From Terasakiispira papahanaumokuakeensis (GTDB lineage Bacteria > Pseudomonadota > Gammaproteobacteria > Pseudomonadales > Halomonadaceae), in contig NZ_MDTQ01000001.1 of NCBI RefSeq assembly GCF_001709345.1, positions 124,001 through 188,000 of the forward strand: a DNA stretch of 64,000 bases, given 5' to 3'. Position 1 is the first letter of the stretch, and every line of letters begins with the position of its first letter. The translations under genes and the position numbers were made by a program. Below are positions 46,071-62,923 of the stretch, piece after piece. The notes under the pieces were generated by a model. The model was not told the origin of the DNA. It worked only from the letters and a program-made list of their open reading frames with translations, and did not search any database.

Positions 46071-46874
46071 TTAGTAGACTGAAGACGTCGGTTGTACCGG
46101 GGCGTCGTTCCCCTTGAACTCGCCCGCGAGCGTTTTCAGCGCGCCCATCAGCACACTGGTGTCCACGCCCACGGCCACGAAGGTGGCGCCCAGTTCGAGA
46201 TAGTGCCGAGCGAGGGCCTTGTTGGCTGAGAGGATACCAGCAGCCTTGCCCGCCTTTTGAATACGAGCGATCCCGTCTTCGATGGCGGCTTGCACGTCTT
46301 CGTGCCCCGGATTGCCGCGATGGCCGAGCGAGGCACTCAAATCCGCCGGGCCGATAAAGACACCGTCGACCCCCTCGACGGCCGCAATTTCGTCCAGGTG
46401 TTTGAGCCCTTGCTGAGTTTCGATCTGCACCAATAGGCAGAACTCGTCATCGGCGTGATCAAGATAGCCCGGAATTGAATTCCAGCGCGAAGCACGCGCC
46501 AAGGCGCTACCGACACCGCGAATACCCTCCGGCGGGTAGCGAGTGGCGCGCACCAGCTCACGTGCCTGTTCAGCAGTGTCCACCATGGGCACCAGTAACG
46601 TTTGCACGCCCACATCCAGGTACTGCTTGATCGTCGCGGCGTCACCTACCGGGGGGCGGGCGATCGGTTGAACAGGGTAAGGTGCCACCGCTTGAAGCTG
46701 ATCGAGGAGGGTACGAAGATCATTCGGCGCGTGCTCGCCGTCAATCAGCAACCAATCGAAACCGGCATTGGCGGCAAGCTCGGCGCAGTAGCCATTGGCA
46801 AGCCCTAGCCAGAGACCAATTTGAGCCTCCTGGTGGCCAAGGGCCTGCTTGAAGGTATTGATGGGCATGTCCAT
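46071..46874 (-). CDS. hpaI: 4-hydroxy-2-oxoheptane-1,7-dioate aldolase HpaI
   Basis: A 267-residue HpcH/HpaI-family class II aldolase that splits 4-hydroxy-2-oxoheptanedioate to pyruvate and succinate semialdehyde. It shows [29 protein letters not shown] (Glu-His), the divalent-metal region [12 protein letters not shown] and [19 protein letters not shown]. This is the last enzymatic step of the homoprotocatechuate route. GGAG lies just before ATG 46874. It lies downstream of hpaD across an 87-base gap containing a 15-bp repeat. Confidence 0.9.
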
Positions 46875-46941: not shown

Positions 46942-46961
46942 CACCTTAAAAGCGCGTCGCA

Positions 46962-47816
46962 TTAAAGCGGAAAAACGGCGTTAATCTGGCCAGTTCCTGA
47001 GCTGCCGAACGGGGCCGTTACAATTTCGGCCGGGCGGTCATAGCCCTCACCGAGTACCCCCAGTAGCATGGCGGTATCATGCATGCCGCCTTCGCCGTAG
47101 CAGTGCTCGGCGTATTCCGGCAGCATTTTGCGAAATTCGTCGAATTTGCCCTCGCGCCACAGTTCCACTACGCGAATATCCATCTGGCGATCGAACTCTC
47201 GTGACCAACGGTGGAGGTTTTGCTTGGCGAGGTTGTTATCGGTAAAACGGTGCGACAGTGAGCCAGAGGCGAGCACCATGACCTTATGGTCGCTGGCCTC
47301 AATCGCCTCGCGTATGGCAGCACCAAAACGGATGCTATCGTTCAAATCGTGCCAGGCATCCCAGGCGGCGATAGAAATCACCTTGAAGGCTTGATCGTTG
47401 GGCACATCCATATGCATGTAGCGCATGGGCACCAAGGTGCCATATTCGAGCTTAAGACTCTCGATGTTGTGCGCCATGGTGCGGATATCGGAGCGGTTGG
47501 CGTATTCGGCGATCGATCGACCTAGTTCGGGACAGCCATCGTAGCGGTAAGCCATGTTCTTAATGAAGTGCGGTAGCTCATTGCTGGTGTAGACGCCTTC
47601 GAAATGATCACCGCAGTTGATGTGGTAGCCACTGTTGACCAGCCAGTGGGTGTCGAAGACGACGACAACGTCGACGCCGAGTTCGCGGGCACGACGACCG
47701 ATCTCTTTGTGGCCGGCAATGGCTTCGGCACGGCAGCCATGGTGTTCACCCGGCTGTTCAGAGAGGTACATCGAGGGGACATGTGTGATCTTGGCGGCAA
47801 GTACGATTTCACCCAT
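46962..47816 (-). CDS. hpaD: 3,4-dihydroxyphenylacetate 2,3-dioxygenase HpaD
   Basis: The ring-opening extradiol dioxygenase of the pathway; it converts homoprotocatechuate to 5-carboxymethyl-2-hydroxymuconic semialdehyde. The 284-residue LigB-type protein aligns by eye with E. coli HpaD throughout: AAKITHVPSMYLSE, FDTHWLVNSGYHINC, SLKLEYGTLVPMRYM, ASGSLSHRF, CYGEGGMHDTAMLLG and SSGTGQINAVFPL. The histidine-rich segments supply the non-haem iron ligands. AAGGAA precedes the ATG. Its gene is divergent from the activator gene hpaA. Confidence 0.93.
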   Translation of the reverse strand: MGEIVLAAKITHVPSMYLSEQPGEHHGCRAEAIAGHKEIGRRARELGVDVVVVFDTHWLVNSGYHINCGDHFEGVYTSNELPHFIKNMAYRYDGCPELGRSIAEYANRSDIRTMAHNIESLKLEYGTLVPMRYMHMDVPNDQAFKVISIAAWDAWHDLNDSIRFGAAIREAIEASDHKVMVLASGSLSHRFTDNNLAKQNLHRWSREFDRQMDIRVVELWREGKFDEFRKMLPEYAEHCYGEGGMHDTAMLLGVLGEGYDRPAEIVTAPFGSSGTGQINAVFPL

Positions 47817-48903: not shown

Positions 48904-48951
48904 CGGGCCTATTATCGATAGTGGACCTATTGCTCGACAGCGGGCCTGTTG
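48896..48951. repeat. 18-bp tandem repeat (3 copies) over the hpaA stop codon
   Basis: ATCGATAGCGGGCCTATT, ATCGATAGTGGACCTATT and a 19-bp third unit GCTCGACAGCGGGCCTGTT fill the 49-base gap between convergent hpaA and hpaH. The hpaA TAG is inside the first unit. Confidence 0.8.
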
Positions 48952-48952
48952 C

Positions 48953-49753
48953 CTAGTCGAACGTCAACGATACGGTGCCGAACGCGCCGTAGTCTGCTTC
49001 GATCCGGCTGCCGGATGGGCATTCCACCGGGCCGATAAAAGAACCCGATAAAATCACTTGGCCGGCCTCAATGCGCTGGCCATAGGTGGCCATCCGCCGC
49101 GCCAGCCACACCAGCCCTGTGACCGGGTCGTCCAGTACGCCAGCGCCCAGGCCGGTGGCGACCACGTCGTCGTTGTGTTTGACAATGGCGCCGACCCAGC
49201 GTAGATCGAGTGCGTTCGGGTCGTGGCGCGCTGTCCCGAGCACGATGCCGGCATTGGCGGCGTTATCGGACACGGTGTCGAAGATCACCCGAGATTGGCC
49301 GGTCTCGGTGTCTTTTCGAACGATACGGGTGTCGAGGATCTCAAGGGCTGGCGTCACGTATTCGGTCGCGGCCAGCACCGCTTCGCGGGTGACCTCGCCC
49401 TCAAGCGGTGTCTTCATCACAAAAGCGATCTCGGCTTCGATGCGGGGGGCGATGAAGTGACCCTTCGGAATGACCGCACTCGTGTCATAGCGCATATAGT
49501 CGTAGAGCACACCGCTGTCCGGGGTGTCGATGCCGAGCGCGTCCTGCATCACTTTGGAGGTCAGCCCGATCTTCCAGCCGAGAATGGCGTGATCCTGGGT
49601 TTTGCGCGTCATCTGGGCTGTCTGGATCGCATAAGCATCGTCTAGCGTCATGTCCGGGTAGCGTTTGGACAGCAGCCCGATCTGCTTGCGGGTCGCTTCT
49701 GCCTCCAGCAGCGCCTCGGCGGCTTCAGCGATCTGGGTCTCAGTCAGTGCCAT
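48953..49753 (-). CDS. hpaH: 2-oxo-hept-4-ene-1,7-dioate hydratase HpaH
   Basis: A 266-residue hydratase of the fumarylacetoacetate-hydrolase superfamily that adds water to 2-oxohept-4-enedioate. It has PDMTLDDAYAIQTAQMTR, GWKIGLTSKVMQ, PRIEAEIAFVM (metal-ligand Glu pair) and a C-terminal GSFIGPVECPSGSRIEADYG. ATG 49753 follows GGAGG by nine bases and overlaps the hpaG end by fourteen bases. Confidence 0.9.
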   Translation of the reverse strand: MALTETQIAEAAEALLEAEATRKQIGLLSKRYPDMTLDDAYAIQTAQMTRKTQDHAILGWKIGLTSKVMQDALGIDTPDSGVLYDYMRYDTSAVIPKGHFIAPRIEAEIAFVMKTPLEGEVTREAVLAATEYVTPALEILDTRIVRKDTETGQSRVIFDTVSDNAANAGIVLGTARHDPNALDLRWVGAIVKHNDDVVATGLGAGVLDDPVTGLVWLARRMATYGQRIEAGQVILSGSFIGPVECPSGSRIEADYGAFGTVSLTFD

Positions 49754-50630
49754 GTCGTTCGTCCTCCACACCGTTGATCAAGGTGCCAATGCCGTCGGCC
49801 TCGATCTCGATCACATCGCCCGGTTTGAGCCAGATCGGTGGATCGAAACGGGCCCCGGCGCCGGTAGGCGTACCGCAGACGATCACATCGCCTGGGACCA
49901 GGGTGGTGAAGGTCGAGACGTAATTCACGATGTAGCGGAAGTCGAATATCATCCGTGAGGTGCGGTCGTGCTGGCGTACCTCGCCGTTGACGCGGGTGGT
50001 CAGTTCGATGTCATCGAGCTGTTCGGCACGTTTGAACGGCACCAGCCACGGACCGATAGCACCGGTGGCGTCGAAGTTCTTGCCTTGGGTGACATTGAAT
50101 TTGGCGTGGCGGACCCAGTCTCGAATCGTGCCCTCGTTGCACAGCGTCAGCGCGGCGATGTGCTCATAGGCCTTCTCGCGCGCAATCCGGCGGCCGCCCT
50201 TGCCAATGACGATGGTGATTTCGCCTTCGTAATCGAGCTGTTCGCTCTCCGGCGGGCGCACGATGTTCTCGTGATGACCGACGAAGCTGCGCGGAAAGCG
50301 GATGAACAACGACGGTTTGCTGGGCGCTGTTTGGCCGTCCTTGTACTCTTCGTTGCGCGAGGGGAAGTTGACGCCGACGCAGATCAGTTTTTCCGGGTGA
50401 GCGATGGGGATCAGGTAGGTCACGTCTTCTTCGCGGTAGCTTGGACTGCGGCCTTCGGCAACACTTAAAAGCTCATCCATGGCGCCCGCCTCAATGACTT
50501 CTTTAAGGCCCTTGAAGCGGCTGCCGAATTCGGGGGTTAGATCGACAATACCGTGATCGGTGACGACACCGAAGCGATCGGCGCCGTTGGCACGAAAGGA
50601 CGCAAGGCGCGGGGGAAGAGGGGTACTCAT
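49740..50630 (-). CDS. hpaG: HpaG-type decarboxylase/isomerase, single FAH domain
   Basis: A 296-residue fumarylacetoacetate-hydrolase-family enzyme: CVGVNFPSRNEEYKD, YEGEITIVIGKGGRRI (metal ligands), TQGKNFDATGAIGPWLV and GDVIVCGTPTGAGARFDPP. Context assigns it to HpaG, which decarboxylates 5-oxopent-3-ene-1,2,5-tricarboxylate. E. coli HpaG is about 430 residues with two fused FAH domains doing decarboxylation and isomerisation; only one domain is present here. ATG 50630 lies eight bases after GGAG; ATG 50636 is too close to the site. Confidence 0.8.
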   Translation of the reverse strand: MSTPLPPRLASFRANGADRFGVVTDHGIVDLTPEFGSRFKGLKEVIEAGAMDELLSVAEGRSPSYREEDVTYLIPIAHPEKLICVGVNFPSRNEEYKDGQTAPSKPSLFIRFPRSFVGHHENIVRPPESEQLDYEGEITIVIGKGGRRIAREKAYEHIAALTLCNEGTIRDWVRHAKFNVTQGKNFDATGAIGPWLVPFKRAEQLDDIELTTRVNGEVRQHDRTSRMIFDFRYIVNYVSTFTTLVPGDVIVCGTPTGAGARFDPPIWLKPGDVIEIEADGIGTLINGVEDERHGTD

Positions 50631-50734
50631 AAGCATTCTCCTGACGACCCGAGTGATCTCGGGCCCTTTGAATCATGGGGTGATGCCTGCGGCGGATCGT
50701 TCAGGCCGCAGCGCATCGCGCTGTTCACCAGCGG

Positions 50735-52243
50735 TTAGCCGAGTTTCGGCACTGGGTGCACCTTACGTGGGAAGGAGACATTGACCGTCTCCATATAGAA
50801 ATCGAACGACCAGTCGCCACCATCGCGGCCGATACCCGATGACTTCACGCCACCAAAGGGCGATTCCAGGTGGCGCACGTTTTCTGAGTTGACCCAGATC
50901 ATGCCCGCTTCCAGCGCGTCGGTTAGGCGCATGGCGCGGTCGAGGTCATTGGTCCAGAGATATGCGGCCAAGCCGTACTGGGTGTCATTGGCTAAGCGCA
51001 ATGCCTCTTCTTCATCCTTGAACGGAATGGCCGTGAGCACCGGGCCAAAGATCTCTTCTTGGGCGATGGTCATGTCGTTGCGTGCGTGAGTGAACAGGGT
51101 CGGGCGTACGAAGCAGCCTGCCTCACCGACTTTTTCACCCCCCGCGGCGATGGTCGCGCCCTCTTCGCGTGCCTTGGCGAAGTAGGACAGCACCTTCTGT
51201 TCGTGTTCGGGGTGGATCAGTGGGCCGACCACGGTTTCTGGGTCCAGCGGATGGCCGACTTTGACGCCGTTGGCGACTTCGGCGACGCGGCGGGTGACCT
51301 CGTCATAAATGCGCTCGTGCACCAGCAGGCGTGAGGACGATGTGCAACGCTCGCCGTTGAGCGAGTAAATCATGAAGGTGGCGGCGTTAACGGCGCGGTC
51401 GATGTCAGCGTCATCGAACACAATGACTGGATTCTTGCCGCCTAGCTCGAAGTGGAAGCGTTTCAGCGTCGGCGCGGCTTGGGCCATGATCAGCTGGCCG
51501 GTATGGCTTTCACCGACGAAGGCGATGGCCTTGATGCCAGGGTGTTCGGTCAGGGCCTTGCCCGCGCCTTCGCCCATGCCGTTGACGAGGTTCAACACGC
51601 CCTTGGGCAAACCGGCTTCCTCGGCGATCTCGACCAGTAGCTTGGCGGTCATTGGTGAGAACTCCGCCGGCTTGTGGACCACCGTGCAGCCCGAGGCCAG
51701 CGCCGGAGCAATCTTCCAGGTCGAGAGCATGAACGGCGTGTTCCAGGGAGTGATCACGCCGACCGGCCCCAATGGGCGTTTGGAGGTGACGTTCATCTGG
51801 GTGTCGTTGCGTAGTGCTTGGCCGTCTTCGGCTTGCGGAGCGCGGTCGGCAAAGAAGCGGAAATTGGCCGCGCCGCGAATCGCCGCCTTGGACATGAAGC
51901 GCAGTGATTGACCGGTGTCCATGCACTCAGTGAAGGCAATTTCTTCGGCACGCGCTTCGATCGCTTCGGCCACCTTGATCAGAATCGCACGACGCTCTTT
52001 GCCTGGTGTCTTGCTCCAGCTCTTGAACGCTTTTTCGGCGGCCTTGACGGCGCGGTCGATATCGCTGGCGTCACCATGAGCGACGTTGGCCAGTGGCGCC
52101 AGATCCACCGGCGACAGCGTCTCGAAGGTCTTGCCGGAGTCAGCGGCGACTGATTCACCGTTGATGTGGTTCAAGACGCCTTGCTCACGAAACCGCTGCA
52201 TGTACTGCTGTGCGCGGTCGATGTTGTCGTTCAATTGACTCAT
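50735..52243 (-). CDS. hpaE: 5-carboxymethyl-2-hydroxymuconic-semialdehyde dehydrogenase HpaE
   Basis: A 502-residue NAD-dependent aldehyde dehydrogenase. Substrate-tunnel and cofactor motifs are VGVITPWNTPFML and FELGGKNPVIVFD (general-base Glu), the catalytic Cys is in LNGERCTSSSRLLV, and the C-terminus has ESPFGGVKSSGIGRDGG. It oxidises the ring-cleavage semialdehyde to the dicarboxylate. AGGAGG precedes ATG 52243. It is between hpaG and hpaF on the same strand. Confidence 0.9.
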   Translation of the reverse strand: MSQLNDNIDRAQQYMQRFREQGVLNHINGESVAADSGKTFETLSPVDLAPLANVAHGDASDIDRAVKAAEKAFKSWSKTPGKERRAILIKVAEAIEARAEEIAFTECMDTGQSLRFMSKAAIRGAANFRFFADRAPQAEDGQALRNDTQMNVTSKRPLGPVGVITPWNTPFMLSTWKIAPALASGCTVVHKPAEFSPMTAKLLVEIAEEAGLPKGVLNLVNGMGEGAGKALTEHPGIKAIAFVGESHTGQLIMAQAAPTLKRFHFELGGKNPVIVFDDADIDRAVNAATFMIYSLNGERCTSSSRLLVHERIYDEVTRRVAEVANGVKVGHPLDPETVVGPLIHPEHEQKVLSYFAKAREEGATIAAGGEKVGEAGCFVRPTLFTHARNDMTIAQEEIFGPVLTAIPFKDEEEALRLANDTQYGLAAYLWTNDLDRAMRLTDALEAGMIWVNSENVRHLESPFGGVKSSGIGRDGGDWSFDFYMETVNVSFPRKVHPVPKLG

Positions 52244-52270
52244 CAAGCATCCTCCTGAAGGGATATAGGT

Positions 52271-52657
52271 TCACTGTTGGGAAAGTCGTGCGTGGATGGG
52301 CGTGTCTTTCCAGCTCAATACGGCGTCGATTTCGCGGATTTCCAGCGAGAGGGCGAAATGTGGTGTGGCCAGCGGGTCCGTCAGCACCTTCTGGACGGCA
52401 GCAAATAGCGCGTCACCGGCCGCTTTGAGATCACGCTGGGCGCGTCCGCTGCCGACACTCAACGTCATGGCCAGAAAGTCGTTTTGAGGATGGTCGTCGG
52501 CCACGATGCAATGATCGGCGGCAAAAGCGCGGATCCGAATCCCTGCCGTCGGAAAAAGTACGGATGCCACCATCACCTGATGGGCAGCGCGACAAACCTC
52601 TTGAATATCGACGCGCTGCTCGAGACTGGATGAGTATTCAATATGTAAATGGGGCAC
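52271..52657 (-). CDS. hpaF: 5-carboxymethyl-2-hydroxymuconate delta-isomerase HpaF
   Basis: A 128-residue tautomerase-like isomerase. It begins MPHLHIEYSS, with the catalytic Pro2 that follows the initiator, and contains RAFAADHCIVADDHPQNDF. It shifts the double bond before decarboxylation by HpaG. The start is GTG at 52657, preceded by AGGAGA. It is the first gene of the hpaFEGH operon and is divergent from the hydroxylase gene. Confidence 0.9.
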   Translation of the reverse strand: MPHLHIEYSSSLEQRVDIQEVCRAAHQVMVASVLFPTAGIRIRAFAADHCIVADDHPQNDFLAMTLSVGSGRAQRDLKAAGDALFAAVQKVLTDPLATPHFALSLEIREIDAVLSWKDTPIHARLSQQ

Positions 52658-52684
52658 GTCGTTCTCCTGAGTCGTTTGAAGCCT

Positions 52685-52735
52685 TTGGTCGTCTGAAGCT
52701 GTTGATCACCTGAACCTGTTGATCACCTGAATCGT
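52685..52735. repeat. 17-bp tandem repeat (3 copies) upstream of hpaF
   Basis: TTGGTCGTCTGAAGCTG, TTGATCACCTGAACCTG and TTGATCACCTGAATCGT lie end to end, with a decayed copy on the hpaF side. Confidence 0.8.
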
Positions 52736-52766
52736 GATGTGGGCAAACGGCCAAAATTTCATTTCA

Positions 52767-52779
52767 TTAATATATTAAT
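52767..52779. promoter_or_regulatory. Palindromic operator candidate (HpaR type) near hpaF
   Basis: TTAATATATTAAT, part of a perfect 14-base palindrome (52766-52779). It matches two sites before the P450 gene (TTAA, four bases with A/T at the second and TA at the end, TTAAT). It is about 110 bases upstream of hpaF. Confidence 0.5.
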
Positions 52780-53146
52780 CATATGTGGGGCGACTCCTGT
52801 CAAGCATTCTCATCTCATCATTTAGATGGGGGTGACATTGCAGTCTGTGACACCTAGTTGACTGTGTTAGACAATGGCTTGAATAAATTATTTATAGATT
52901 AACGAAATAATAAGTCGATTAGGGCATAAGCCGACCAAGGTAGGGGCTATATTGATGAAAAGTACAATTAAGTCGCTGTAAAACACATCCTCATTGATCT
53001 CTTGGGTCTGCAGCATGAAAAGGGTGAGGGCTTGAGGTCGTGTCGTTAGGCGTGAGCACTTTGTGTATTGCACTTCATTTGTGCCGCTTTGTGCCGCCGG
53101 GCCTGATTCAGTCCGTTTCGATTCAAACAATAATGAGGAGTCAGTC

Positions 53147-55024
53147 ATGCAATTCCATCATCACGGCTATGTATCCGGCGATCCCCGTGTTCAACCCGCG
53201 CTCGGCGAAGGGCTTGATCGCCCTGAGACGTTGCCCGACGAGGTTGATGTGCTGATTGTAGGGACTGGGCCTGCCGGTATGATCATGGCCGCTCAGCTGG
53301 CGCAGTTTCCGCATATTCGTACTCGCATTATTGAGCGCCGAGCGGGCCGGCTCGAAATCGGTCATGCCGATGGTATTCAGGCGCGTAGCGTTGAAACGTT
53401 TCAGGCGTTCGGTTTTGCCGACCGGATCACCGCCGAGGCGTATCGGATCACCGAAATGGCCTTCTGGAAGCCAGACCCGGCGCGCCCGGAACACATTATG
53501 CGCGTGGCACGTACACCGGATGACCCTGAAGGCATCAGCGAGTTTCCCCATTTGATCGTCAACCAGGCGCGGGTGCTCGACTATTTGGCTGAGTCCGCTG
53601 CCAATGGCCCGGCACGCATACGCCCAGACTTCGGCATCGAATTCCAGGGGCTTGAGGTCGAGGGCTCGGGTGATTACCCCGTGCGCGTCTCACTCAAGCA
53701 TGTGGCCGGGCCGGAAAGCGGCCGCGAGCGCACGATCCGCGCCCAATATGTCGTCGGTTGCGATGGTGCGCATAGCGGGGTGCGCCGCGCGATTGGCTGT
53801 ACGTTAAGTGGCGACCAAGCCAATCATGCCTGGGGCGTGATGGATGTGATGGCCAAGACCGACTTTCCGGATATTCGCACCAAATGCGCCATTCAATCCC
53901 ACGCCGGGGGCAGCATTCTGCTGATTCCTCGTGAGGGTGGGCATCTGTTTCGAATGTACGTCGATCTCGGCGAAGTGCCGGCCGACGGCACAAACGAGGT
54001 GCGCAATACCTCCATCGAGCAGATCATCGCCAAGGCCAATGCGATTCTCACGCCTTATACACTGGATGTACGCAATGTTGCTTGGCACAGTGTCTACGAA
54101 GTGGGGCACCGTCTTACCGACCGCTTCGACGATGTCGAAACCCCAGACTCTGGCCGCTTGCCCCGTGTGTTTATCACCGGTGATGCCTGTCATACCCATA
54201 GCGCCAAGGCAGGCCAGGGGATGAACGTTTCAATGCAAGATGGCTTTAATTTGGGCTGGAAGCTCGGCCACGTTTTGTCGGGACGCAGTCCCGCTACGCT
54301 GCTCTCCACTTATTCTGCCGAACGCCAGGTGGTGGCCAGGAACCTGATCGACTTCGATAAGCAGTGGTCGACGATGATGGCCAAGCGCCCGGAAGAGTTC
54401 GACACCCCTGATGAACTGGAGGCTTTCTATACCCGCACTATTGAGTTTCCCGCGGGCTTTATGACCGAGTATGAGCCGTCGCTGATTACCAATGACACTG
54501 ATTACCAAGCCTTGGCGACGGGCTTCCCCGTGGGCAAACGCTTCAAGTCTGCGTGGGTTTCGAGGGTGTGCGATGGTAATCCGTTGCAGCTAGGCCACCA
54601 GGCCACAGCAGACGGCCGTTGGCGTCTCTACGTCTTTGCCGATGCTGCGCCCGGCCAAGCGGATTCGGCGACTCAGCGGCTTGCCGACTGGCTGGTGCAG
54701 GCGGCTGACTCGCCCCTCAATGCCCCCCAGCTCGGCGGTGCCTGGGTCGATGGGTTCGATATCAAAGTGATTTATCCAACGCCTCATGAGGAGGTCTCGA
54801 TCACGGCGGTGCCTTCCGTGTTCACCCCAGACGTCGGTCCGTTTGCGTTGACCGATCTCGAAAACGTGTTCGGTGTGATCCCCAGTGATTCCATTTTCAC
54901 GGCTCGTGGTATCGCGCGTGAAGGTGCTGTGGTCGTGGTCCGTCCCGATCAGTATGTGGCCGATGTGTTGGCGCTTTCCGATACCCCTCGTCTTGGCGCG
55001 TTCTTTAAGCGTTTGCAGGCATAG
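53147..55024 (+). CDS. FAD-dependent aromatic hydroxylase (3-hydroxybenzoate 4-monooxygenase/phenol hydroxylase-like)
   Basis: A 625-residue class A flavoprotein monooxygenase: Rossmann motif IVGTGPAGMIMAAQL, DG motif VVGCDGAHSGVRR and GD motif VFITGDACHTHSAKAGQGMN. A C-terminal thioredoxin-like domain (about residues 440-625) is typical of phenol 2-monooxygenase and MobA, the 3-hydroxybenzoate 4-hydroxylase. ATG 53147 follows GAGGAG by a short gap. In this context it may hydroxylate a 3-hydroxyphenylacetate-like compound to the catechol that HpaD opens; the substrate is inferred only from neighbours. Confidence 0.82.
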   Translation: MQFHHHGYVSGDPRVQPALGEGLDRPETLPDEVDVLIVGTGPAGMIMAAQLAQFPHIRTRIIERRAGRLEIGHADGIQARSVETFQAFGFADRITAEAYRITEMAFWKPDPARPEHIMRVARTPDDPEGISEFPHLIVNQARVLDYLAESAANGPARIRPDFGIEFQGLEVEGSGDYPVRVSLKHVAGPESGRERTIRAQYVVGCDGAHSGVRRAIGCTLSGDQANHAWGVMDVMAKTDFPDIRTKCAIQSHAGGSILLIPREGGHLFRMYVDLGEVPADGTNEVRNTSIEQIIAKANAILTPYTLDVRNVAWHSVYEVGHRLTDRFDDVETPDSGRLPRVFITGDACHTHSAKAGQGMNVSMQDGFNLGWKLGHVLSGRSPATLLSTYSAERQVVARNLIDFDKQWSTMMAKRPEEFDTPDELEAFYTRTIEFPAGFMTEYEPSLITNDTDYQALATGFPVGKRFKSAWVSRVCDGNPLQLGHQATADGRWRLYVFADAAPGQADSATQRLADWLVQAADSPLNAPQLGGAWVDGFDIKVIYPTPHEEVSITAVPSVFTPDVGPFALTDLENVFGVIPSDSIFTARGIAREGAVVVVRPDQYVADVLALSDTPRLGAFFKRLQA

Positions 55025-55067
55025 CGCGACCTTCCTTTTATTCATGTTTTTTATGAAAAATACAATG

Positions 55068-55107
55068 CTGAATCAGCCGACCCGCATAAGCGGGTCGGCT
55101 GATTCAG
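55068..55107. terminator. 18-bp perfect hairpin between the monooxygenase and P450 genes
   Basis: CTGAATCAGCCGACCCGC and GCGGGTCGGCTGATTCAG pair perfectly around ATAA, beginning 44 bases after the monooxygenase stop. It is very stable. The plus strand lacks a T-run after it (CTAAAAAAG follows), so it may act as an mRNA 3' end or partial terminator, insulating the P450 promoter. Confidence 0.6.
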
Positions 55108-55142
55108 CTAAAAAAGCGGTTTCTTTACACAAAGTATAATAG

Positions 55143-55189
55143 TTAATTTATTAATAATTGGCGCAAAGTATATACATTAACTTATTAAT
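55143..55189. promoter_or_regulatory. Two tandem palindromic operator candidates upstream of the P450 fusion gene
   Basis: TTAATTTATTAAT (55143-55155) and TTAACTTATTAAT (55177-55189) are 34 bases apart, about three helical turns. A TATAAT at 55135-55140 abuts the first. Both match the palindrome near hpaF, so one regulator (HpaR is the obvious candidate) may cover both promoters. Confidence 0.5.
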
Positions 55190-55273
55190 GACTGATTTTT
55201 TTAATGGGTCGCCCATGCGTTAACTCTCGATCGATGACTTTTATTGAGCCGCTGTCCTTCTTCCGGAGATCGT

Positions 55274-58200
55274 ATGAATCACGCCAATCCTTCTCGACCA
55301 GCTCCAGTCGCGGACTGGATCGATATCAAGACGCTCTACCACGACCCCTATCCGATCTACGAACGTCTGCGTCGTGAAGGAGGGGTTCACTGGGTACCCA
55401 GTGTCAATCGCTATCTAATCACCAGCTACGAGGCCGTGATCGCCACCGAACATGATCAGGAAACCTTCTCTGCCAACGAGCACGATTCGTTGCAGATCCG
55501 TGCCATGGGCCATTCGATGTTGCGCCGCGACGATCCTGAGCACTACCGCGAGCGTCGCCAGTGGCAGAGTGTGTTCAAGCCGAGTGTGGTCAAGAACGTC
55601 TGGACCCAGGCTTTCCATGAAAAGGCTCGGGAACAGCTTTCCAAACTTGTCGATAAGGAGTCGGGTGCGGATTTGATCTGGGATTTTGCGGCGCCTTTTG
55701 CGGCGGAGTGTTTGAAGGAGCTCCTTGGGCTCCACAACGTTTCGTCGGAGGATATGCAGCGCTGGTCACAGACGCTGATCGACGCCACCGGCAATTACGC
55801 CAACGATCCGGATGTTTGGGCTGCCGGCAAGCGTTCGTTTGACGAGGTCGATATCGCGCTCGATGAAATGCTCGAGTGGCACCGGCATAACCGCGACCAT
55901 TCGCTGATATCGTCACTGCTTTCCTCGCCTGAGGAGCAGATGCCGATAGAGAAGATCCGCGCCAACATCAAGATGAGCATCGGTGGCGGGCTCAATGAGC
56001 CACGCGATGCGCTAGGCGTGGCGGCCTGGGCGATGCTGACCCACCCTGATCAACGCCGGGCCGCCGAGCGTGACCCGAGCCTCTGGTCGACGGTGTTCGA
56101 TGAATCCATCCGTTGGATCGCGCCGATTGGGCTGTACTCGCGCCAAACGACTCAAAAGACTGTGCTGGCCGGTGTCGAGCTGCCCAAAGGTGCCCGCTTG
56201 GGTATTTGCATTTTGTCGGCTAACCGCGACGAGTCGGTATGGGAGCGCGCGGATGAGTTCGATATCTACCGCGAGGTCAAGCCTCATTTGGCCTTCAGCA
56301 AGGGCACCCACGTCTGTCTTGGTGCGCGGGCGGCGCGAGCCCAGATCGCCGACGTCGCCTTACCGCTATTATTCAACCACCTGAAAGGGCTACGAGTTCA
56401 TCCTGATCGCGAGCCCACCATTGGCGGCTGGGTATTCCGAGGCATGCTCTCTCTGCCGGTCACTTGGGAGAGCGTCGTTCCCTTCAAGGGCAGCGGCGCT
56501 GACGCGGCCGCCTCTGCCATTACCTGCGAGGCTGAGGCAACGCACCACATCGCCATCGTTGGCTCGGGCCCGGCGGGCTGTTTCACGGCGAAAGAAATCC
56601 AGCGCTGCATGCGTGGTGCCCATATCGATCTGATCGATCGCTTGCCGGTACCTTACGGGCTCTTGCGCTACGGCGTGGCCGGCGACCATCAGGGCACCAA
56701 GGCCGTTTCGCGCCAGTTCGACCGGCTGTTCGATTCGCCTAAAGTACGCTTCATTGGCAATACCACTATCGGCGATCAGATCTCCTTCGAGGCGCTGCGC
56801 GCGGACTACGACGCTGTGGTCGTCGCCTCCGGAGTGTGTGCAGATCGTCGACTCCACATTAACGGTGAAGACCTGACCGGTGTGTTCGGTGCAGGCGGCA
56901 TTACTCGACGGCTGAACGGTCACCCGTACGAAACGACCACCCCGACGTTAGGTCGGCGCGTGGCGATTATCGGCCAAGGCAACGTGGCCATCGATGTGCT
57001 TCGGCTATTGTCGATTGGATCAGAAGAACTCAAAGGCAGCGACATCGACGCCGCCGTTCATGAAGCGCTGACTCGTGACATCGACACGCTGCATATTATC
57101 GGCCGCTCGAGTGCCGAGAAGGCCCGCTTCGACCCGGTCATGATTCGCGAGCTGGGCCGCTTTGCGAGCATCGAACATCGTCTCCATGGCGTCGATCTCG
57201 ACCGCGTGCCGGAAGGCAAGGATGCGCGGTTGGACGCGTTACGCACATTGCCAGGCGCCTACCAGGTTAAGGTTGAGGGCGCGCCATCCATGACGGTCGA
57301 ATGGTGGTTCGAAGCCACCCCTGAGCAGATCAATGGACAGGGCAAAGTCGAAGGCGTTTCCTTGGGCCTCGGCGGCGAAACAATCTCGCTGGCGGTGGAC
57401 TCGGTGATTACTGCCATCGGCTTCGTTCCCGATCCAGAAGATGTCATATCCAAAGCGCTGGCCCAGCTTCCCCGGGCCTCTGACACCGGGCGCGTGGAGG
57501 CGGGGCTTTATCTGGCCGGATGGTTGCGTCGTGGTGCCAGGGGCACGATTCCCGATCAGCGTACCGATGCTCGGGCGTTAGCGGGTGTGATCAGCGGTGA
57601 CATCGCCGCCGGTGAGGTGACGTGTACTCGCAGTGGGATGACGCCTCCTGTGGATGCGACCGATATTGACGGCTGGTGGCGCATCGATCACCAGGAGCGC
57701 GATCAAACCGCGCCGGACCGGGTGCGTACCAAACTGACTACGCTCGAAGCGCTGCTCGAGTCAGCGCGGGACGAGTCGATCGTGTTCGAGCGTCGCACTC
57801 AAGGTGTGGTCGGTGACGGCAAAAGCCTAGGCGATTTGTCCGTGAGTGTACTGTTCGGCACCGAGTCGGGTAACGCCGAACTGGTGGCCGAGGAAATCGG
57901 GCAGATGCTTGACGGCCGCTGCGCGGTGGACGTGGCCGACCTGGGCGATGTCGACCCACACGCTCTCGATCCTAACCGGCTCTATCTGATTGTCTGCTCG
58001 ACCTACGGTGACGGCGATGTGCCGGGCGGAGCGAACAACTTTTATCAGACGCTTCGCGATGGCGCCCCGGATATTTCCGGCATTCGCTTTGCGAGCTTGG
58101 CACTGGGTGATAGCAGCTACGCCCGCACCTACTCCCGTGGCGGCGAGCTACTTACCGAGGCGATGGTGGCCTGTGGCGCAATACGTATCGGCGAGTTCGG

Positions 58201-58300
58201 CCGCCATGATGCCAGCGGCCCGCTGATGGCCTCTGAGGTCGCACTGGATTGGGCCGAGGGGGTACTGAGTTTGGTGTTGAGCGAAGACCCGGCAACCTGA
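55274..58300 (+). CDS. Three-module self-sufficient monooxygenase: cytochrome P450 (GcoA-like) - adrenodoxin-type reductase - flavodoxin
   Basis: A 1008-residue fusion. Residues 1-410 are a P450: ExxR in DESIRW (about 277-280), haem loop FSKGTHVCLG with Cys348, and a C-terminal GWVFRGMLSLPVTWE resembling the aromatic O-demethylase GcoA (CYP255). The I-helix reads GGGLNEPRDALG, lacking the usual acid-threonine pair, as in GcoA. Residues about 423-790 are an adrenodoxin reductase/FprA-type FAD-NADPH module (VGSGPAGCFTAKEIQ, RLPVPYGLLRYGVAGDHQ, IIGQGNVAIDV, GARGTIPDQRTDA). Residues about 856-1003 are a flavodoxin (LFGTESGNAE FMN loop, CSTYGDGDVPGGA). One chain could thus pass electrons NADPH-FAD-FMN-haem. 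The ATG at 55274 has CGGAG six bases upstream. Likely substrate: an aromatic methyl ether whose demethylation yields a catechol or phenol for the hpa genes. Confidence 0.9.
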   Translation: MNHANPSRPAPVADWIDIKTLYHDPYPIYERLRREGGVHWVPSVNRYLITSYEAVIATEHDQETFSANEHDSLQIRAMGHSMLRRDDPEHYRERRQWQSVFKPSVVKNVWTQAFHEKAREQLSKLVDKESGADLIWDFAAPFAAECLKELLGLHNVSSEDMQRWSQTLIDATGNYANDPDVWAAGKRSFDEVDIALDEMLEWHRHNRDHSLISSLLSSPEEQMPIEKIRANIKMSIGGGLNEPRDALGVAAWAMLTHPDQRRAAERDPSLWSTVFDESIRWIAPIGLYSRQTTQKTVLAGVELPKGARLGICILSANRDESVWERADEFDIYREVKPHLAFSKGTHVCLGARAARAQIADVALPLLFNHLKGLRVHPDREPTIGGWVFRGMLSLPVTWESVVPFKGSGADAAASAITCEAEATHHIAIVGSGPAGCFTAKEIQRCMRGAHIDLIDRLPVPYGLLRYGVAGDHQGTKAVSRQFDRLFDSPKVRFIGNTTIGDQISFEALRADYDAVVVASGVCADRRLHINGEDLTGVFGAGGITRRLNGHPYETTTPTLGRRVAIIGQGNVAIDVLRLLSIGSEELKGSDIDAAVHEALTRDIDTLHIIGRSSAEKARFDPVMIRELGRFASIEHRLHGVDLDRVPEGKDARLDALRTLPGAYQVKVEGAPSMTVEWWFEATPEQINGQGKVEGVSLGLGGETISLAVDSVITAIGFVPDPEDVISKALAQLPRASDTGRVEAGLYLAGWLRRGARGTIPDQRTDARALAGVISGDIAAGEVTCTRSGMTPPVDATDIDGWWRIDHQERDQTAPDRVRTKLTTLEALLESARDESIVFERRTQGVVGDGKSLGDLSVSVLFGTESGNAELVAEEIGQMLDGRCAVDVADLGDVDPHALDPNRLYLIVCSTYGDGDVPGGANNFYQTLRDGAPDISGIRFASLALGDSSYARTYSRGGELLTEAMVACGAIRIGEFGRHDASGPLMASEVALDWAEGVLSLVLSEDPAT

Positions 58301-58380
58301 GCCCCGCGACGGGTTGAATCCTTCATTTTCATTCATCGCCCGAGGGCAAGACTTAAATCTAAAGCACCATGAGAGGGACA

Positions 58381-59463
58381 ATGATCATTATGAAAACAAT
58401 AATAAAACATGCTCCTGGCCGACTTCAGCGGCTACTCTTGGCCAACATCATCACCTTGCTCTGCGGGCTTGTAAGCGCTCAAGCCCTGGCCGCGACGACG
58501 CTGCGCATCACTCATTTTTTGCCCTCGGTGGCCAGTGTTCAACGCGGTGTTCTTGAGCCCTGGTGCGCCGATCTGGAAGCACGCGCCGAGCACACGATCC
58601 GCTGCCAGATCTATCCCGCCATGCAGCTGGGGGGAATCCCTTCGCAGTTGCCCGATATGGTGCGCAACGGTGTGGTCGACATTGCCTGGACGGCACTGGG
58701 CTACTCTGCCGGACGCTTTCCACGCAGCGAGGCGCTGGAACTACCTTTTATGCTGCCGGCTGGCGGTGTGACGGCTAGTCAGATCGCCTGGGACTTCGTC
58801 CAGGGCCCGGCGCGAGACGACTTTGCCGACTATCACGTGCTGGCCGTGCATAGCGATGGCGGCGCTGTTTTCCATTCTCGCCCTCGTGCCATTCACGGTA
58901 TTGACGATATGGTCGGGTTGAAGCTTCGCGCGCCGACCCGAATGGCCTCGCGGCTGATCGATGCACTCGGCGCTTCGGCGGTGAGCATGCCGCCGGGCCA
59001 GATTGCCGATACGCTGGCCAAGGGCGTGATCGATGGCGCCTCGGCGGGCTGGGAGGTGGTGCCGCCGACCAAGCTCGACGAAGTCACTCACTACCACACT
59101 GAGTCGGCATCGGATCAAGCCACACCGACGGTAACCGTGCTGGCCTTTTTAATGAACAAGCAACGTTATGAGCAGCTGCCCGCGCAAGCCCGCGAGGCGC
59201 TGGATTCGCTCAGCGGTGAAACCCTCTCGCGCCGCTTTGGTCGTGCCTGGGACAACGCCATCGTGCCGGTGCGTATGCGGCTTGAAAACGACCCCGAGCA
59301 AACGGTTATTGCCCTGGACAATGCCGCTTACGAGGCCATGCGAGACGCCTCGCAAGGCGTGACGGATGACTGGATGGCCTCTTCTGCGGGCGACATTGAC
59401 CGAGCCGCGTTGGTGGATTCGCTGCGCGCGATCGTGGATCGCTACGTCAATCTACGCCATTAA
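58381..59463 (+). CDS. TRAP transporter substrate-binding protein, DctP family
   Basis: A periplasmic receptor of about 360 residues. The signal peptide ends near AQALA. Mature TLRITHFLPSVASVQRG and the family's ligand-clasp region LKLRAPTRMASRLIDALGAS (with the carboxylate-binding Arg in LRAPTR) are visible, then PPGQIADTLAKGVIDGASAG. It binds an organic acid; an aromatic acid fits the locus. The start is uncertain among ATG 58369, 58381 and 58390; GAGAGGG precedes 58381. Confidence 0.88.
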   Translation: MIIMKTIIKHAPGRLQRLLLANIITLLCGLVSAQALAATTLRITHFLPSVASVQRGVLEPWCADLEARAEHTIRCQIYPAMQLGGIPSQLPDMVRNGVVDIAWTALGYSAGRFPRSEALELPFMLPAGGVTASQIAWDFVQGPARDDFADYHVLAVHSDGGAVFHSRPRAIHGIDDMVGLKLRAPTRMASRLIDALGASAVSMPPGQIADTLAKGVIDGASAGWEVVPPTKLDEVTHYHTESASDQATPTVTVLAFLMNKQRYEQLPAQAREALDSLSGETLSRRFGRAWDNAIVPVRMRLENDPEQTVIALDNAAYEAMRDASQGVTDDWMASSAGDIDRAALVDSLRAIVDRYVNLRH

Positions 59464-59511
59464 ACGCTGCGCGATTACCGCTACGATCACTGTGACCAGG
59501 GAGAGCCACCC

Positions 59512-60018
59512 ATGATTCAACCTTTTTTAAAACGACTCTCAGCAGGGCTTGCGCTTATGGGCGGCTTGCTGTTGTTGGGCGCCATCACATTGTCACTTTT
59601 CTCTATGGTGGGGCGTCGGCTCTGGGCGACGCCCATCACCGGCGATATGGAGCTGTTGCAGATGACTATGGCGGTTGCCGTGGCCTGTTTTCTACCGTTA
59701 TGTGAAATCAACGACCGCCATATCCGCGTCGATATCATCGCCTCAGCACTGCCTGCGAGGGTCAATCGGGGACTGCTGGCGATCTCGCATCTGGTGTTGG
59801 CCGTCGTCAGCGCGCTTCTGCTATAGCGCACAGCACTGATGACCGAAGACAGCTTTCTTTATCACGCGCAAAGCGTTCAGCTGGGGTTGCCCGAAGGCGC
59901 TTTTCAGGTCGCCATGCTGCCAGGGCTTGCGCTCATGAGCCTGTGTGCGCTGTATCAGAGCCTGCATCATCTGACCCACGATGAGGCCACGATCCTGACT
60001 GATGAGGAGGGCATCTGA
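59512..60018 (+). pseudogene. TRAP transporter small permease DctQ interrupted by an in-frame amber codon
   Basis: The frame reads MIQPFLKRLSAGLALMGG and shows three membrane segments with the DctQ motif GRRLWATPITGDMELLQMTM and CEINDRHIRVDI. At 59824-59826 a TAG interrupts it (ALLL-stop-RTALMTEDS). The same frame then continues without another stop to TGA 60016-60018, restoring the normal length of about 168 residues and the final membrane segment (AMLPGLALMSLCALY). The following dctM start overlaps this TGA (TGATG), as in an intact operon. DctQ proteins usually have Trp-Arg-Thr here, so a TGG-to-TAG change is the simplest explanation. Without readthrough the transporter would lack its fourth helix and translational coupling to dctM. 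Confidence 0.85.
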
Positions 60019-61334
60019 TGGAAGGACTGACGATGGGGGCTGTGGCACTCGGAGGTATGCTGGCGCTGCTGGGATGCAGACTGCACGTTGGCGTGGCGAT
60101 GATGATGGCTGGAGCCCTGTGCTATTGGCTGGTTTATGACGGCGATACCCACGCGCTGTTGTATACGTTGAACAATCTCGTATATGCGCGGTTTTCGAGC
60201 TATGACCTCGCTGTCATTCCTATCTTCGTGCTGATGGGGCAGTTTGCCATTCATGGCGGGCTCTCGGCGACCCTCTTTCAAGCCAGCGCCAAGTGGATTG
60301 GACATTGGCGCGGTGGCCTTGCGATGTCGGCGGCGGGGGCTTGTGCTGGGTTTGGCGCCATCTGCGGCTCATCGCTGGCCACCGCGACCACCATGAGTCA
60401 GGTGGCCCTGCCTGAGCTCGAACGCCATCGCTACAGCAAACGCCTCGCCACGGGGACCATCGCGGCGGCCGGGACACTAGGTATTCTGATCCCGCCCTCG
60501 GTGCCGTTGATCGTTTACGCCGTACTGACCAATTCGTCGATCACCACGCTGTTCATGGCGGCCGTCTTGCCGGGGCTGCTCGCTGTGGCAGGCTACTTCG
60601 TGGTGATTCGGCTGCTGGCCGTGCGCGCCATGGGCGGTGTCGAGGCCTCTCCGCGCTACAGTTGGGCCGAGCGGTGGGCAAGTTTGCGCGATATTGCGCC
60701 GGTTCTGGTGATCTTCTTCGTGGTGATCTTTGGCCTCTACGGGGGCTGGGCGAATCTGACCGAGGCGGCGTCACTCGGCGCAGCGGCCTGCGGGGTCTAT
60801 GCCATGTGGCAGGGGATGCGCTGGCCCGGGCTTGCCAAAAGTTTGCTGGGCACCGCTGAGGCCAGTGCGATGATTTACCTCGTCGTCATCGGCGCTGATC
60901 TACTCAACAGCGGGCTGGCTTTGGGGCAAATGCCCACTGCGCTGGCTGACTGGGTCTTGGGTAGTGGACTCGCGCCACTGGCGATTCTCATGGTGGTGTT
61001 GGCGATCTATCTGGTGCTTGGGTGCATGATGGATTCGCTGTCGATGATTTTGCTGACGATTCCGATCTTCTTCCCGATCATCATGCAGCTTGAGCTGTTC
61101 GGGCTGACTGGGCCGGAGAAGGCGATCTGGTTCGGTATCGTCGCCTTGATGGTGGTCGAGATCGGCCTGATCACGCCCCCCATGGGGATGAATCTGTTCA
61201 TCGTGCAGAAGTACAGTCAGGGCGCGACGTTGGGTACCGTTAGCCGGGGCATCCTGCCCTTTCTCGGTGCCGACATGGTGCGCATCGCCATCGTCGTGTT
61301 CGTCCCGGCGCTGTCGCTGGTATGGCTCGGCTAA
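60018..61334 (+). CDS. TRAP transporter large permease, DctM family
   Basis: A 438-residue membrane protein with about twelve segments: FVLMGQFAIHGGLSATLF, GFGAICGSSLATATTMSQVA, GTLGILIPPSVPLIVYAVLT and VEIGLITPPMGMNLFIVQ are all DctM hallmarks. Start ATG 60018 overlaps the full-frame dctQ TGA, with GAGGAG upstream. It forms the sodium-coupled channel of the importer with DctP and DctQ. Confidence 0.93.
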   Translation: MEGLTMGAVALGGMLALLGCRLHVGVAMMMAGALCYWLVYDGDTHALLYTLNNLVYARFSSYDLAVIPIFVLMGQFAIHGGLSATLFQASAKWIGHWRGGLAMSAAGACAGFGAICGSSLATATTMSQVALPELERHRYSKRLATGTIAAAGTLGILIPPSVPLIVYAVLTNSSITTLFMAAVLPGLLAVAGYFVVIRLLAVRAMGGVEASPRYSWAERWASLRDIAPVLVIFFVVIFGLYGGWANLTEAASLGAAACGVYAMWQGMRWPGLAKSLLGTAEASAMIYLVVIGADLLNSGLALGQMPTALADWVLGSGLAPLAILMVVLAIYLVLGCMMDSLSMILLTIPIFFPIIMQLELFGLTGPEKAIWFGIVALMVVEIGLITPPMGMNLFIVQKYSQGATLGTVSRGILPFLGADMVRIAIVVFVPALSLVWLG

Positions 61335-61567
61335 GTGACGCGCCCAGGGATGGACGCTTGATCGTCATCGTCGAGCCGTTCGAAAGTGTTCGGCTGGACG
61401 AAGAGGAACATTTGGATTAAGCGGATAGCGGCAGTGTCAGACAGGTTTTCGTCAAAGGGAGGCAAGAGCGACGGGTGGAGGCTCGCTAGCCTGTGAATAG
61501 AGACCGTACAGCTTGTGCGTGCGGTCCATTATCACGGGTTCTAAAAACAAGCATAACGACAATAACA

Positions 61568-62923
61568 ATGGACGATGACTTCATGACTCACTTGCCCTCT
61601 CGACCGATGCTGTCAGCACTTGCTACAGGCACGTTTGTTTCGCTCGCCTTGTGTGGAAACGCTTCTGCAGTTGAGCTTCACAAGTCAGCGGATACGACCC
61701 TCAACCTCAATGTCAACGGTGTCGCCGGGGCATTTCACAGCCAGAAAGGTTATGCCCAGTCGGAAACGGCGAAGGCGGAAGGCCGTGACTGGCAGGAAGG
61801 CTTCATTACCTACGGTATTGACCTGACGCATACGCTGTCGCCCAAGGCAGGGTCGCTTTATGCCGATGTGGCCTGGACCTCCAGTGGTACTTGGGGGCAG
61901 GGCGATGCGGCAGGCTTTACCACTGGCGATGAGCGTCATACCCATATTGAGCATTTATTCGCTGGCTGGAAGTCTGGTGAGCTGATTCCGGCGTTTGGCA
62001 CTGACGGGCTCGATGTGTCGGTGGGTCGGCAATATATTCAGATCGGCGACGGGTTCCTGATTGCCGGTGACGCGCTCAATTTCGGTGAGGGCGTCTTAGG
62101 CGGAGATTTAGATAGAGGCGGGGCTTACTATCTGGCCGCGCGGCAGTCCTTTGACAACACCGCCGTCATTCGACTCGGCGGCGACCAGGGCTGGCGGGGT
62201 GACTTGATGTGGTTGAAATCTGACAACCCGGCACAGGCCAAACCTGAGATGGCGGTCGGCACGTTTGAGCATGTCACCGATGATGCCACACTTGGGGCCA
62301 CCTACATTAAGGTGCTCGATACCGATCGTGACTTCGCGTTTCTTTATCCCGACCGGGAAGATACCCAGGTCTATAGCCTCTATGGTCACGGCAATGCGGG
62401 AATCAAAAACCTGTTCCTATCCGGCCAGTATGCTTGGCAGGAAAAAGGCGACGATAGCGATGAAAACGCTTGGTATCTGGAGGCTGGCTGGACCTTTGAC
62501 GAAGTCGCCGGATCACCCTACATCAGCTATCGCTTCAGCCGTTATTCCGACGGCTATGACCCACTGCTTTACGGCAACGGCCGTGCGCTCGGTACCTGGT
62601 TCCAAGGTGAAGTAGCGGCTAACTACGCTGGGCCGTTTTCCACGAATGCACGCATTCATCAGGTCACACTGTCGGTCACGCCGAGCGAACAATTCAACAT
62701 CGGTCTGCTGATGTACCGCTTCGATACGCTGAATACCGACTCAGGTCATCTCGATGGTCACGAGATTGATCTCTACGGCAGTTGGACAATCAACGATCAC
62801 TGGTGGGTGATGCCGCTTTTGGGTCGTTATGATCCTGATCAATCGACTTCTGGCGGCGGTTCACAGCTCGGTGACAGTAGCGCCAACTATTATACCCAGC
62901 TGCTGGTTGGATTTAACTTTTAG
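61568..62923 (+). CDS. Outer membrane porin-type beta-barrel protein
   Basis: About 451 residues: signal peptide ending near GNASA, then alternating amphipathic strands and a C-terminal aromatic residue (LVGFNF), the outer-membrane sorting mark. Internal stretches such as AGWKSGELIPAFGTDGLDVS and DGHEIDLYGSWTINDHWWVM resemble an alginate-export/OprD-like barrel. It directly follows the TRAP genes and probably admits the same substrate through the outer membrane. Start choice (61568 versus 61583) is uncertain because no ribosome site stands out. Confidence 0.75.
   Translation: MDDDFMTHLPSRPMLSALATGTFVSLALCGNASAVELHKSADTTLNLNVNGVAGAFHSQKGYAQSETAKAEGRDWQEGFITYGIDLTHTLSPKAGSLYADVAWTSSGTWGQGDAAGFTTGDERHTHIEHLFAGWKSGELIPAFGTDGLDVSVGRQYIQIGDGFLIAGDALNFGEGVLGGDLDRGGAYYLAARQSFDNTAVIRLGGDQGWRGDLMWLKSDNPAQAKPEMAVGTFEHVTDDATLGATYIKVLDTDRDFAFLYPDREDTQVYSLYGHGNAGIKNLFLSGQYAWQEKGDDSDENAWYLEAGWTFDEVAGSPYISYRFSRYSDGYDPLLYGNGRALGTWFQGEVAANYAGPFSTNARIHQVTLSVTPSEQFNIGLLMYRFDTLNTDSGHLDGHEIDLYGSWTINDHWWVMPLLGRYDPDQSTSGGGSQLGDSSANYYTQLLVGFNF

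Follow-up and report, generated by a model that had tools for sequence, protein, structure and literature searches.

A P450cin/XplAB-type redox chain fused in the order P450, reductase, flavodoxin in Terasakiispira papahanaumokuakeensis

Introduction

Natural cytochrome P450 (P450) proteins that contain a complete electron chain are valued as one-component biocatalysts, and to our knowledge only a few of them are known. Here, we analyzed a window of 64,000 nucleotides from Terasakiispira papahanaumokuakeensis (Halomonadaceae; assembly GCF_001709345.1, contig NZ_MDTQ01000001.1, positions 124,001 to 188,000, forward strand), which contains a gene for a P450 fused to a flavin adenine dinucleotide (FAD) reductase of the adrenodoxin reductase type and a flavodoxin. 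The protein has a redox chain of the P450cin/XplAB type, fused in a module order that is not described in the limited literature searched (titles and abstract starts among the matches listed, and passages of PMC9687028, PMC8081977 and PMC9405906, most subscription papers being outside this scope). An earlier sequence-only reading had proposed that the order was undescribed and that the protein might be a new self-sufficient class; the first part holds within that literature, whereas the parts correspond to a known kind of chain (P450cin/cindoxin, XplB/XplA) rather than a new one. The protein also represents a family present in at least two phyla.

Several described systems resemble the fused protein in part. 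The XplB/XplA system consists of a flavodoxin, a flavodoxin reductase and a P450, and the middle module of the fusion is 35-42% identical to the reductases of two loci (L047 and L048), which we take to be XplB. However, XplA carries its flavodoxin N-terminal to the P450 and its partner XplB is a protein of its own, whereas the order here is P450, reductase and flavodoxin.

CYP116B enzymes (P450RhF, CYP116B46) have the P450 first, a reductase in the middle and a small carrier last, as does the fusion, and they carry a ferredoxin; for this reason, a literature entry that names CYP116B3 for a triple fusion does not refer to the protein described here. This entry appears in passages of PMC9405906, which distinguish three modes of flavodoxin-P450 linkage. 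For CYP116B46, the review passages give a flavin mononucleotide (FMN) reductase and a [2Fe-2S] ferredoxin, which belong to families unrelated to the modules found here, and no Pfam match to such a reductase or to a C-terminal [2Fe-2S] ferredoxin was obtained at 0.001 in the fused chain. CYP102A1 (BM3) likewise starts with the P450 and continues with FAD and FMN modules in the same polypeptide, but its reductase is a diflavin reductase of the cytochrome P450 reductase type according to passages of PMC9687028, whereas here the FAD module is of the adrenodoxin reductase type and the FMN module is last. The cyclohexanecarboxylate P450 of Paraburkholderia terrae KU-64 differs again, with the order ferredoxin, FAD, FCD-like and P450 according to a review passage. 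Membership in the BM3 (CYP102), CYP116B and XplA groups was rejected on module type or order, in agreement with the sequence-only reading, which had set the protein apart from all three.

The closest electron route is that of P450cin (CYP176A1, cindoxin reductase and cindoxin), in which electrons pass from reduced nicotinamide adenine dinucleotide phosphate (NADPH) through a FAD reductase and an FMN flavodoxin to the P450 (passages of PMC9687028). These are three separate proteins, whereas the fusion is one frame, and the P450 belongs to another family and has another substrate.

Architecture of the fused protein

The fused gene is a single frame without internal stop codons, running from ATG 55274 to the stop codon at 58298-58300 (Table 1). 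GGAG is located 5 bases 5' of this ATG, an alternative start at TTG 55244 would add 10 residues, and the remaining five frames contain 16-39 stops. Pfam matches follow one another along the chain in the order p450, Pyr_redox_2 and Flavodoxin_1. The nearest Protein Data Bank (PDB) chains were 6G71 for the P450 module (E 4.5e-157), FprA 1LQT (E 6.4e-42) and adrenodoxin reductase 1CJC (E 7e-39) for the middle module, and cindoxin 4OXX (E 1.1e-26) for the C-terminal module. These results agree with the sequence-only reading, which had recognized three modules in one uninterrupted frame, a middle module of the FprA/adrenodoxin reductase type and Cys348 as the heme ligand.

Cys348 (codon 56315-56317) lies in the heme motif FSKGTHVCLG (residues 341-350) and is invariant across 21 aligned fused proteins; the P450 module also contains the ExxR motif (E277/R280) and the I-helix motif GGGLNEPRD (residues 237-245). 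In the middle module, the GxGPAG FAD site (GSGPAG, residue 430), the GxGNVA NAD(P) site (GQGNVA, residue 567) and the FAD C-terminal motif GW..RG....I are all present. The predicted FMN loops of the flavodoxin module are GTESGN (residues 862-867) and STYGDG (residues 909-914). Thus, a FAD reductase and an FMN flavodoxin-type carrier, as in the P450cin chain, are recognized by sequence matches with predicted cofactors, and the P450, the NAD(P)H reductase and the one-electron carrier that structurally define a self-sufficient P450 are located on one chain. It should be noted that the GRR of FprA and adrenodoxin reductase is replaced by GRS (residues 610-612 here) in all 22 fused reductases. The arginines of GRR form the site for the 2'-phosphate of NADPH, and a preference for NADPH over NADH is not assured because GRS replaces GRR.

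Table 1. Modules of the fused gene and neighboring features in the window
Feature	Position	Strand	Basis
HpaI, 4-hydroxy-2-oxoheptanedioate aldolase	46071..46874	-	TIGR02311, 411.7 bits, above cut-off 368.8
HpaD, homoprotocatechuate 2,3-dioxygenase (Fe, LigB type)	46962..47816	-	TIGR02298, 442.5 bits, above cut-off 315.95
HpaH, 2-oxo-hept-4-ene-1,7-dioate hydratase	48953..49771	-	TIGR02312, 345.5 bits, just below cut-off 351.5
HpaG-like isomerase/decarboxylase	49740..50636	-	TIGR02303, 177.3 bits, clearly below cut-off 276.4
HpaE, 5-carboxymethyl-2-hydroxymuconate semialdehyde dehydrogenase	50735..52246	-	TIGR02299, 753.2 bits, above cut-off 638.35
HpaF-like isomerase	52271..52657	-	Named from sequence and place; homologs in the same place in L015-L017 and L026
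Flavoprotein aromatic hydroxylase	53153..55024	+	Pfam FAD_binding_3 and Phe_hydrox_dim; PRK08294; nearest PDB chain 3-hydroxybenzoate hydroxylase 2DKH, E 5.9e-190
Fused P450-FAD reductase-flavodoxin, 1008 amino acids	55274..58300	+	Frame, Pfam, homologs with equal architecture
P450 module, CYP1232-like, residues 1-400	55274..56473	+	59.0% identity over 393 residues to 6G71; motifs
Linker 1, weakly conserved, 26-38 residues	56474..56545	+	Alignment; lengths for 21 of 22 rows
Adrenodoxin reductase/FprA-type FAD module, residues 425-832	56546..57769	+	PF07992; 1LQT and 1CJC matches; motifs
Linker 2, length almost fixed	57770..57835	+	Alignment; 35-36 residues from GRxRxK motif to flavodoxin in 13 of 21 rows measured
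C-terminal short flavodoxin module, residues 855-1008 and stop	57836..58300	+	PF00258; cindoxin 4OXX
TRAP transporter DctP	58369..59463	+	PF03480
TRAP transporter DctQ, open reading frame as called	59512..59826	+	PF04290
TRAP transporter DctM	60018..61334	+	PF06808
Outer-membrane porin-like protein	61493..62923	+	Sequence reading; without Pfam or NCBIfam match

Distribution of the fused family

Using short peptide patterns of the query, a genome scan whose carrier list is a lower bound found 31 loci, 21 of which contain the full three-module chain. The carriers are Kushneria, Larsenimonas and Halomonas in Halomonadaceae (77-81% identity) and Brevibacterium, Gulosibacter and Enemella in actinobacteria (53-60%). 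The full chain was present in 7 of 196 relatives (own genome included) and in 6 of 297 genomes from the order to which Brevibacterium casei belongs. Among 396 sampled genomes, 10 contained the P450 within an open frame of more than 1000 residues and were counted as fusions, G526 and G585 solely on the length of the frame; a frame of 1799 residues in G386 was left out because a separate ferredoxin frame follows its P450. The fused proteins show little or no variation in the heme Cys, ExxR, FAD, NAD(P) and FMN motifs. In a plasmid search, no record reached 60% identity and four covered at least 80% of the query; in three of these four (H1, H2 and H4) the parts are separate genes.

The sequence-only reading had suggested searching for homologs of equal module order, which were thus found in two phyla and 21 full-chain genomes, and had regarded a stop or frameshift between the modules as a reason to abandon the fusion. 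Such a break occurs in one relative, Brevibacterium renqingii (L031), where two overlapping frames (pieces 66% and 51% identical) meet between P450 and reductase, either by a real split or by an assembly error. This would be the argument for regarding the single frame as an assembly or sequencing artifact that joins two or three genes. Since the module order is kept across two phyla and the frame is unbroken in 20 of the 21 loci, chance, sequencing error or a frameshift is ruled out as an explanation, and we assign the artifact a practically negligible probability.

Relationship of the P450 module to CYP1232

In P450 nomenclature, identity of more than 40% indicates the same family and that of more than 55% the same subfamily. 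The chain nearest to the P450 module, 6G71, is entitled 'Structure of CYP1232A24 from Arthrobacter sp.', and the identity between the two places the module in family CYP1232, with A as candidate subfamily. The two proteins also have in common the KGxHVCLG loop and the GGGLNEPRD helix, but the solved chain is a P450 alone (405 residues), whereas the P450 here shares its chain with the reductase and the flavodoxin. A model of the P450 module alone (predicted local distance difference test score (pLDDT) 67.4, predicted template modeling score (pTM) 0.70) ranked 6G71 first in a structure comparison (Z 26.1, root mean square deviation 4.8, 363 aligned residues; rank 2 had Z 25.0).

Phylogenetic analysis gave the same placement. 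In a P450 tree of 29 rows, the 22 fused modules form one side of a branch (98/96) and CYP1232A24 adjoins them (99/98). Three long rows, one from L046 and two from L067, are omitted from this tree; with them included, the fused clade is retained (95/92) and deeper forks are open. The 22 fused reductases also form one side of a branch (100/99) in a reductase tree of 40 rows. In the P450 tree, the deepest branches of the fused rows are actinobacterial (Gulosibacter and G462) and Halomonadaceae are nested, the root being set by few unfused rows; this topology suggests one fusion in actinobacteria and later transfer to Halomonadaceae.

Six unfused P450 cousins (L062-L065, L068 and L069) are 47-54% identical to the module. 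A [2Fe-2S] ferredoxin gene follows the P450 in all six, and a gene for the FAD reductase of the ferredoxin also follows in five, none being recognized in L065. Additional unfused P450s on plasmids are 39-45% identical. Passages of PMC9687028 attribute to Klenk et al. the proposal of an Arthrobacter cluster that comprises two P450s, a flavodoxin and a flavodoxin reductase, and cite their paper on CYP1232A24 and 1232F1. Of the unfused P450s listed in the 396 sampled genomes, none exceeded 56% identity to 6G71; the partners of the Arthrobacter enzyme are therefore taken from that review, as its own cluster was not seen among them. Because the cousins are linked to ferredoxin, whereas the proposed Arthrobacter cluster has a flavodoxin and reductase, it is likely that the ferredoxin partner came first, was exchanged for a flavodoxin chain and that fusion followed. 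The KGxHVCLG heme loop is common to the fused rows and CYP1232A24, and the ferredoxin-linked rows have Gly (Ala in L067) instead of Lys; Lys343 could be part of a putative flavodoxin docking site.

Outside the fused family, unfused reductase-flavodoxin gene pairs were found mostly in alphaproteobacterial loci (L036-L039 and L041-L045). In Rhodococcus pyridinivorans (L046), P450, reductase and flavodoxin are three neighboring genes in the same order, with a P450 that is only 23% identical. Besides its fusion, G258 has a separate pair of flavodoxin and adrenodoxin-reductase-type genes beside a divergent, distant P450 frame (L066, 8023-11367).

Typical P450s have an acid-Thr pair in the I helix. 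The fusion has Asn241-Glu242 at the aligned positions instead, as does CYP1232A24, and its reductase is related to the gene pair that we take to be XplB/XplA, so that reductive chemistry like that of XplA might be considered. However, the same GGGLNEPRD helix is found in CYP1232A24 and in the ferredoxin-linked cousins, and the gene lies in an aerobic aromatic pathway. We regard a reductive role as very improbable.

Gene neighborhood and the homoprotocatechuate pathway

As judged by their family matches, the hpa genes beside the fusion are those of the homoprotocatechuate meta pathway (Table 1). The flavoprotein gene sits between this cluster and the fusion, and genes of a tripartite ATP-independent periplasmic (TRAP) transporter and of the porin-like protein follow the fusion; homologs of the latter are close to the fusion in L015-L017, L019 and L026. 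The G+C content of the hpa, flavoprotein, fusion and TRAP genes (46071-61334) is 59-61%, compared with 52.2% in positions 1-45000 of the window. Ten 10-kb pieces sampled from the genome gave 46.3-55.0%, with a mean of 50.7%. This difference from a sampled genome of about 51% suggests that the aromatic catabolic genes were gained horizontally.

Other features of the region were recorded as well. The A+T-rich stretch that separates the flavoprotein gene from the fusion contains an inverted repeat of 19 pairs with a 4-base loop (55067-55108). The DctQ frame encodes 104 residues compared with 167-178 in L015-L017 and L026, and may be truncated. Within the hpa cluster, an AraC-type regulator-like frame (47935-48903, + strand), named from sequence only, is overlapped on the opposite strand by a frame of 347 residues without Pfam or NCBIfam match. 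Beside the cluster are a MarR-type frame (45461-45895), perhaps an HpaR-like regulator and likewise named from sequence only, and a GMC-family oxidoreductase (43650-45272) that adjoins the hpa genes and is choline-dehydrogenase-like, below cut-offs.

The link with the pathway was then followed across genomes. The order hpaE, flavoprotein gene and fusion is present in six of seven Halomonadaceae loci, and the actinobacterium G462 has the flavoprotein (64%), the fusion and HpaG- (33%), HpaE- (50%) and HpaH-like (44%) frames within 20 kb. HpaE reached the cut-off of 638.35 in 20 of the 21 carriers from the genome scan, the remaining one scoring 638.0. It was found in 24 of 196 relatives, including all seven fusion carriers, and at E 1e-170 in 78 of 297 genomes of the Brevibacterium casei order (72 over the cut-off), including all six carriers; the corresponding odds of co-occurrence (1.7e-7 and 2.8e-4) ignore relatedness and serve as description only. 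When the 23 carriers (own genome, 21 from the genome scan and G462) were considered, a flavoprotein homolog was present in all of them at E 1e-100, a count that covers carriers only, and the gap between flavoprotein and HpaE was less than 4 kb in all but G209 and G462 (21 of 23; about 15 kb in G462). An HpaB match was not found in 20 of the 23, including the host genome, with models that do not cover unrelated 4-hydroxyphenylacetate hydroxylases. Because only three have HpaB, most carriers need another maker of homoprotocatechuate.

An unfused CYP1232-like P450 with a ferredoxin in L065 (4362-18001) lies near an HpaE-like dehydrogenase (39%), a flavoprotein homolog (67%) and an HpaG-like frame (29%). 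Given this proximity, the link to the pathway may predate the fusion.

Proposed function

CYP1232A24 reportedly demethylates dimethoxyphenylacetate and homovanillate. With moderate confidence, we propose that the fusion is a self-sufficient monooxygenase that probably removes O-methyl groups from methoxylated phenylacetates, for example homovanillate, and thereby feeds homoprotocatechuate cleavage. The fusion fits as an entry enzyme for these compounds because its P450 relative belongs to the papaverine pathway; Klenk 2019 connects CYP1232A24 with papaverine breakdown in its title.

Architecture, conservation, tree grouping and gene context are direct results, whereas we infer the path of the electrons, self-sufficiency, the substrate and the sequence of reactions as follows. 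NAD(P)H would reduce the FAD of the middle module, which would in turn reduce the FMN of the C-terminal flavodoxin; the flavodoxin, moving on its linker, would then approach the P450 at its proximal face and pass two single electrons to the heme, and the reduced heme would activate O2. The CYP1232-type P450 would O-demethylate methoxylated phenylacetic acids (homovanillate or a 3-methoxyphenylacetate) with release of formaldehyde. The product would be either homoprotocatechuate directly or 3-hydroxyphenylacetate, which the neighboring flavoprotein could hydroxylate at C4, and the adjacent hpa genes would cleave homoprotocatechuate via the meta pathway. The TRAP transporter and the porin-like protein may import the acid.

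This route assumes that a single chain is the working unit. Alternatively, electrons might be transferred from one molecule of a dimer to the other, or free carriers might also supply the P450: active BM3 is a dimer (passages of PMC9687028), and linker 1 varies in both length and sequence among 21 rows. The nearly fixed length of linker 2 and the grouping together of the fused P450 modules, and likewise of the fused reductase modules, in their respective trees argue otherwise, and the host genome contains, besides one full copy of the fusion, only two weak partial matches (29% and 32%). We consider such an arrangement quite unlikely.

A stronger competitor, although still an unlikely one, keeps the same electron chain but has the P450, in place of HpaBC and without O-demethylation, hydroxylate the ring of phenylacetate or 4-hydroxyphenylacetate. 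The hpa cluster requires homoprotocatechuate, most carriers gave no HpaB match as noted above, and the preceding flavoprotein, which resembles 3-hydroxybenzoate hydroxylase, could use 3-hydroxyphenylacetate made by the P450. On the other hand, the nearest characterized P450, CYP1232A24, is said to be an O-demethylase, and the aromatic O-demethylase GcoA is among the further PDB sequence matches of the P450 module (E about 1e-39).

Several observations weigh against our main proposal. The frame is broken between P450 and reductase in L031, as described above. Identity of 59% to CYP1232A24 does not fix the substrate, and the full-length AlphaFold model (pLDDT 58.6, pTM 0.39) is too poor for judging FMN-to-heme reach or module interfaces. 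In Halomonas L027, the exception among the seven Halomonadaceae loci, the fusion does not adjoin hpa genes. Neighbors were listed for nine of the 14 actinobacterial loci, and in these nine no hpa match was seen within about 8 kb of the fusion, except for an aldehyde dehydrogenase in L028 that is 27% identical to HpaE; the link there is genome co-occurrence only. The counts of HpaE against the fusion are not corrected for relatedness, and 17 of the 24 HpaE-positive relatives have no fusion. HpaB matches are present in 3 of the 23 carriers (G214, G216 and G462), including the actinobacterium with the best hpa linkage. Finally, an entry enzyme other than the fusion and unrelated to HpaB is possible, as the HpaB models miss unrelated 4-hydroxyphenylacetate hydroxylases.

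Implications

The O-demethylase proposal can be placed in a broader history, in which a single fusion event, probably in actinobacteria, attached a P450cin-type chain to the C-terminal side of a CYP1232 P450, and the gene later reached Halomonadaceae by transfer. The protein would then be a further natural self-sufficient class, serving as an entry enzyme for homovanillate or methoxyphenylacetate in pathways mostly without HpaB, and its order, with the reductase central and the carrier at the end, would have been reached independently of CYP116B with unrelated parts. We find the case for and against this full account evenly balanced.

The fusion unites an adrenodoxin-reductase-type module and a flavodoxin in one chain, and its P450 relative has a solved structure. 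Together with the fusion, the ferredoxin-linked cousins and the separate relative that is linked to a flavodoxin make it possible to test in which order partner exchange and fusion took place. The homoprotocatechuate context and the CYP1232 relationship, neither of which was part of the sequence-only reading, point to a function: where the homoprotocatechuate pathway is present without an HpaB match, the fusion may be the means by which bacteria admit methoxyphenylacetates derived from lignin or dopamine to that pathway.

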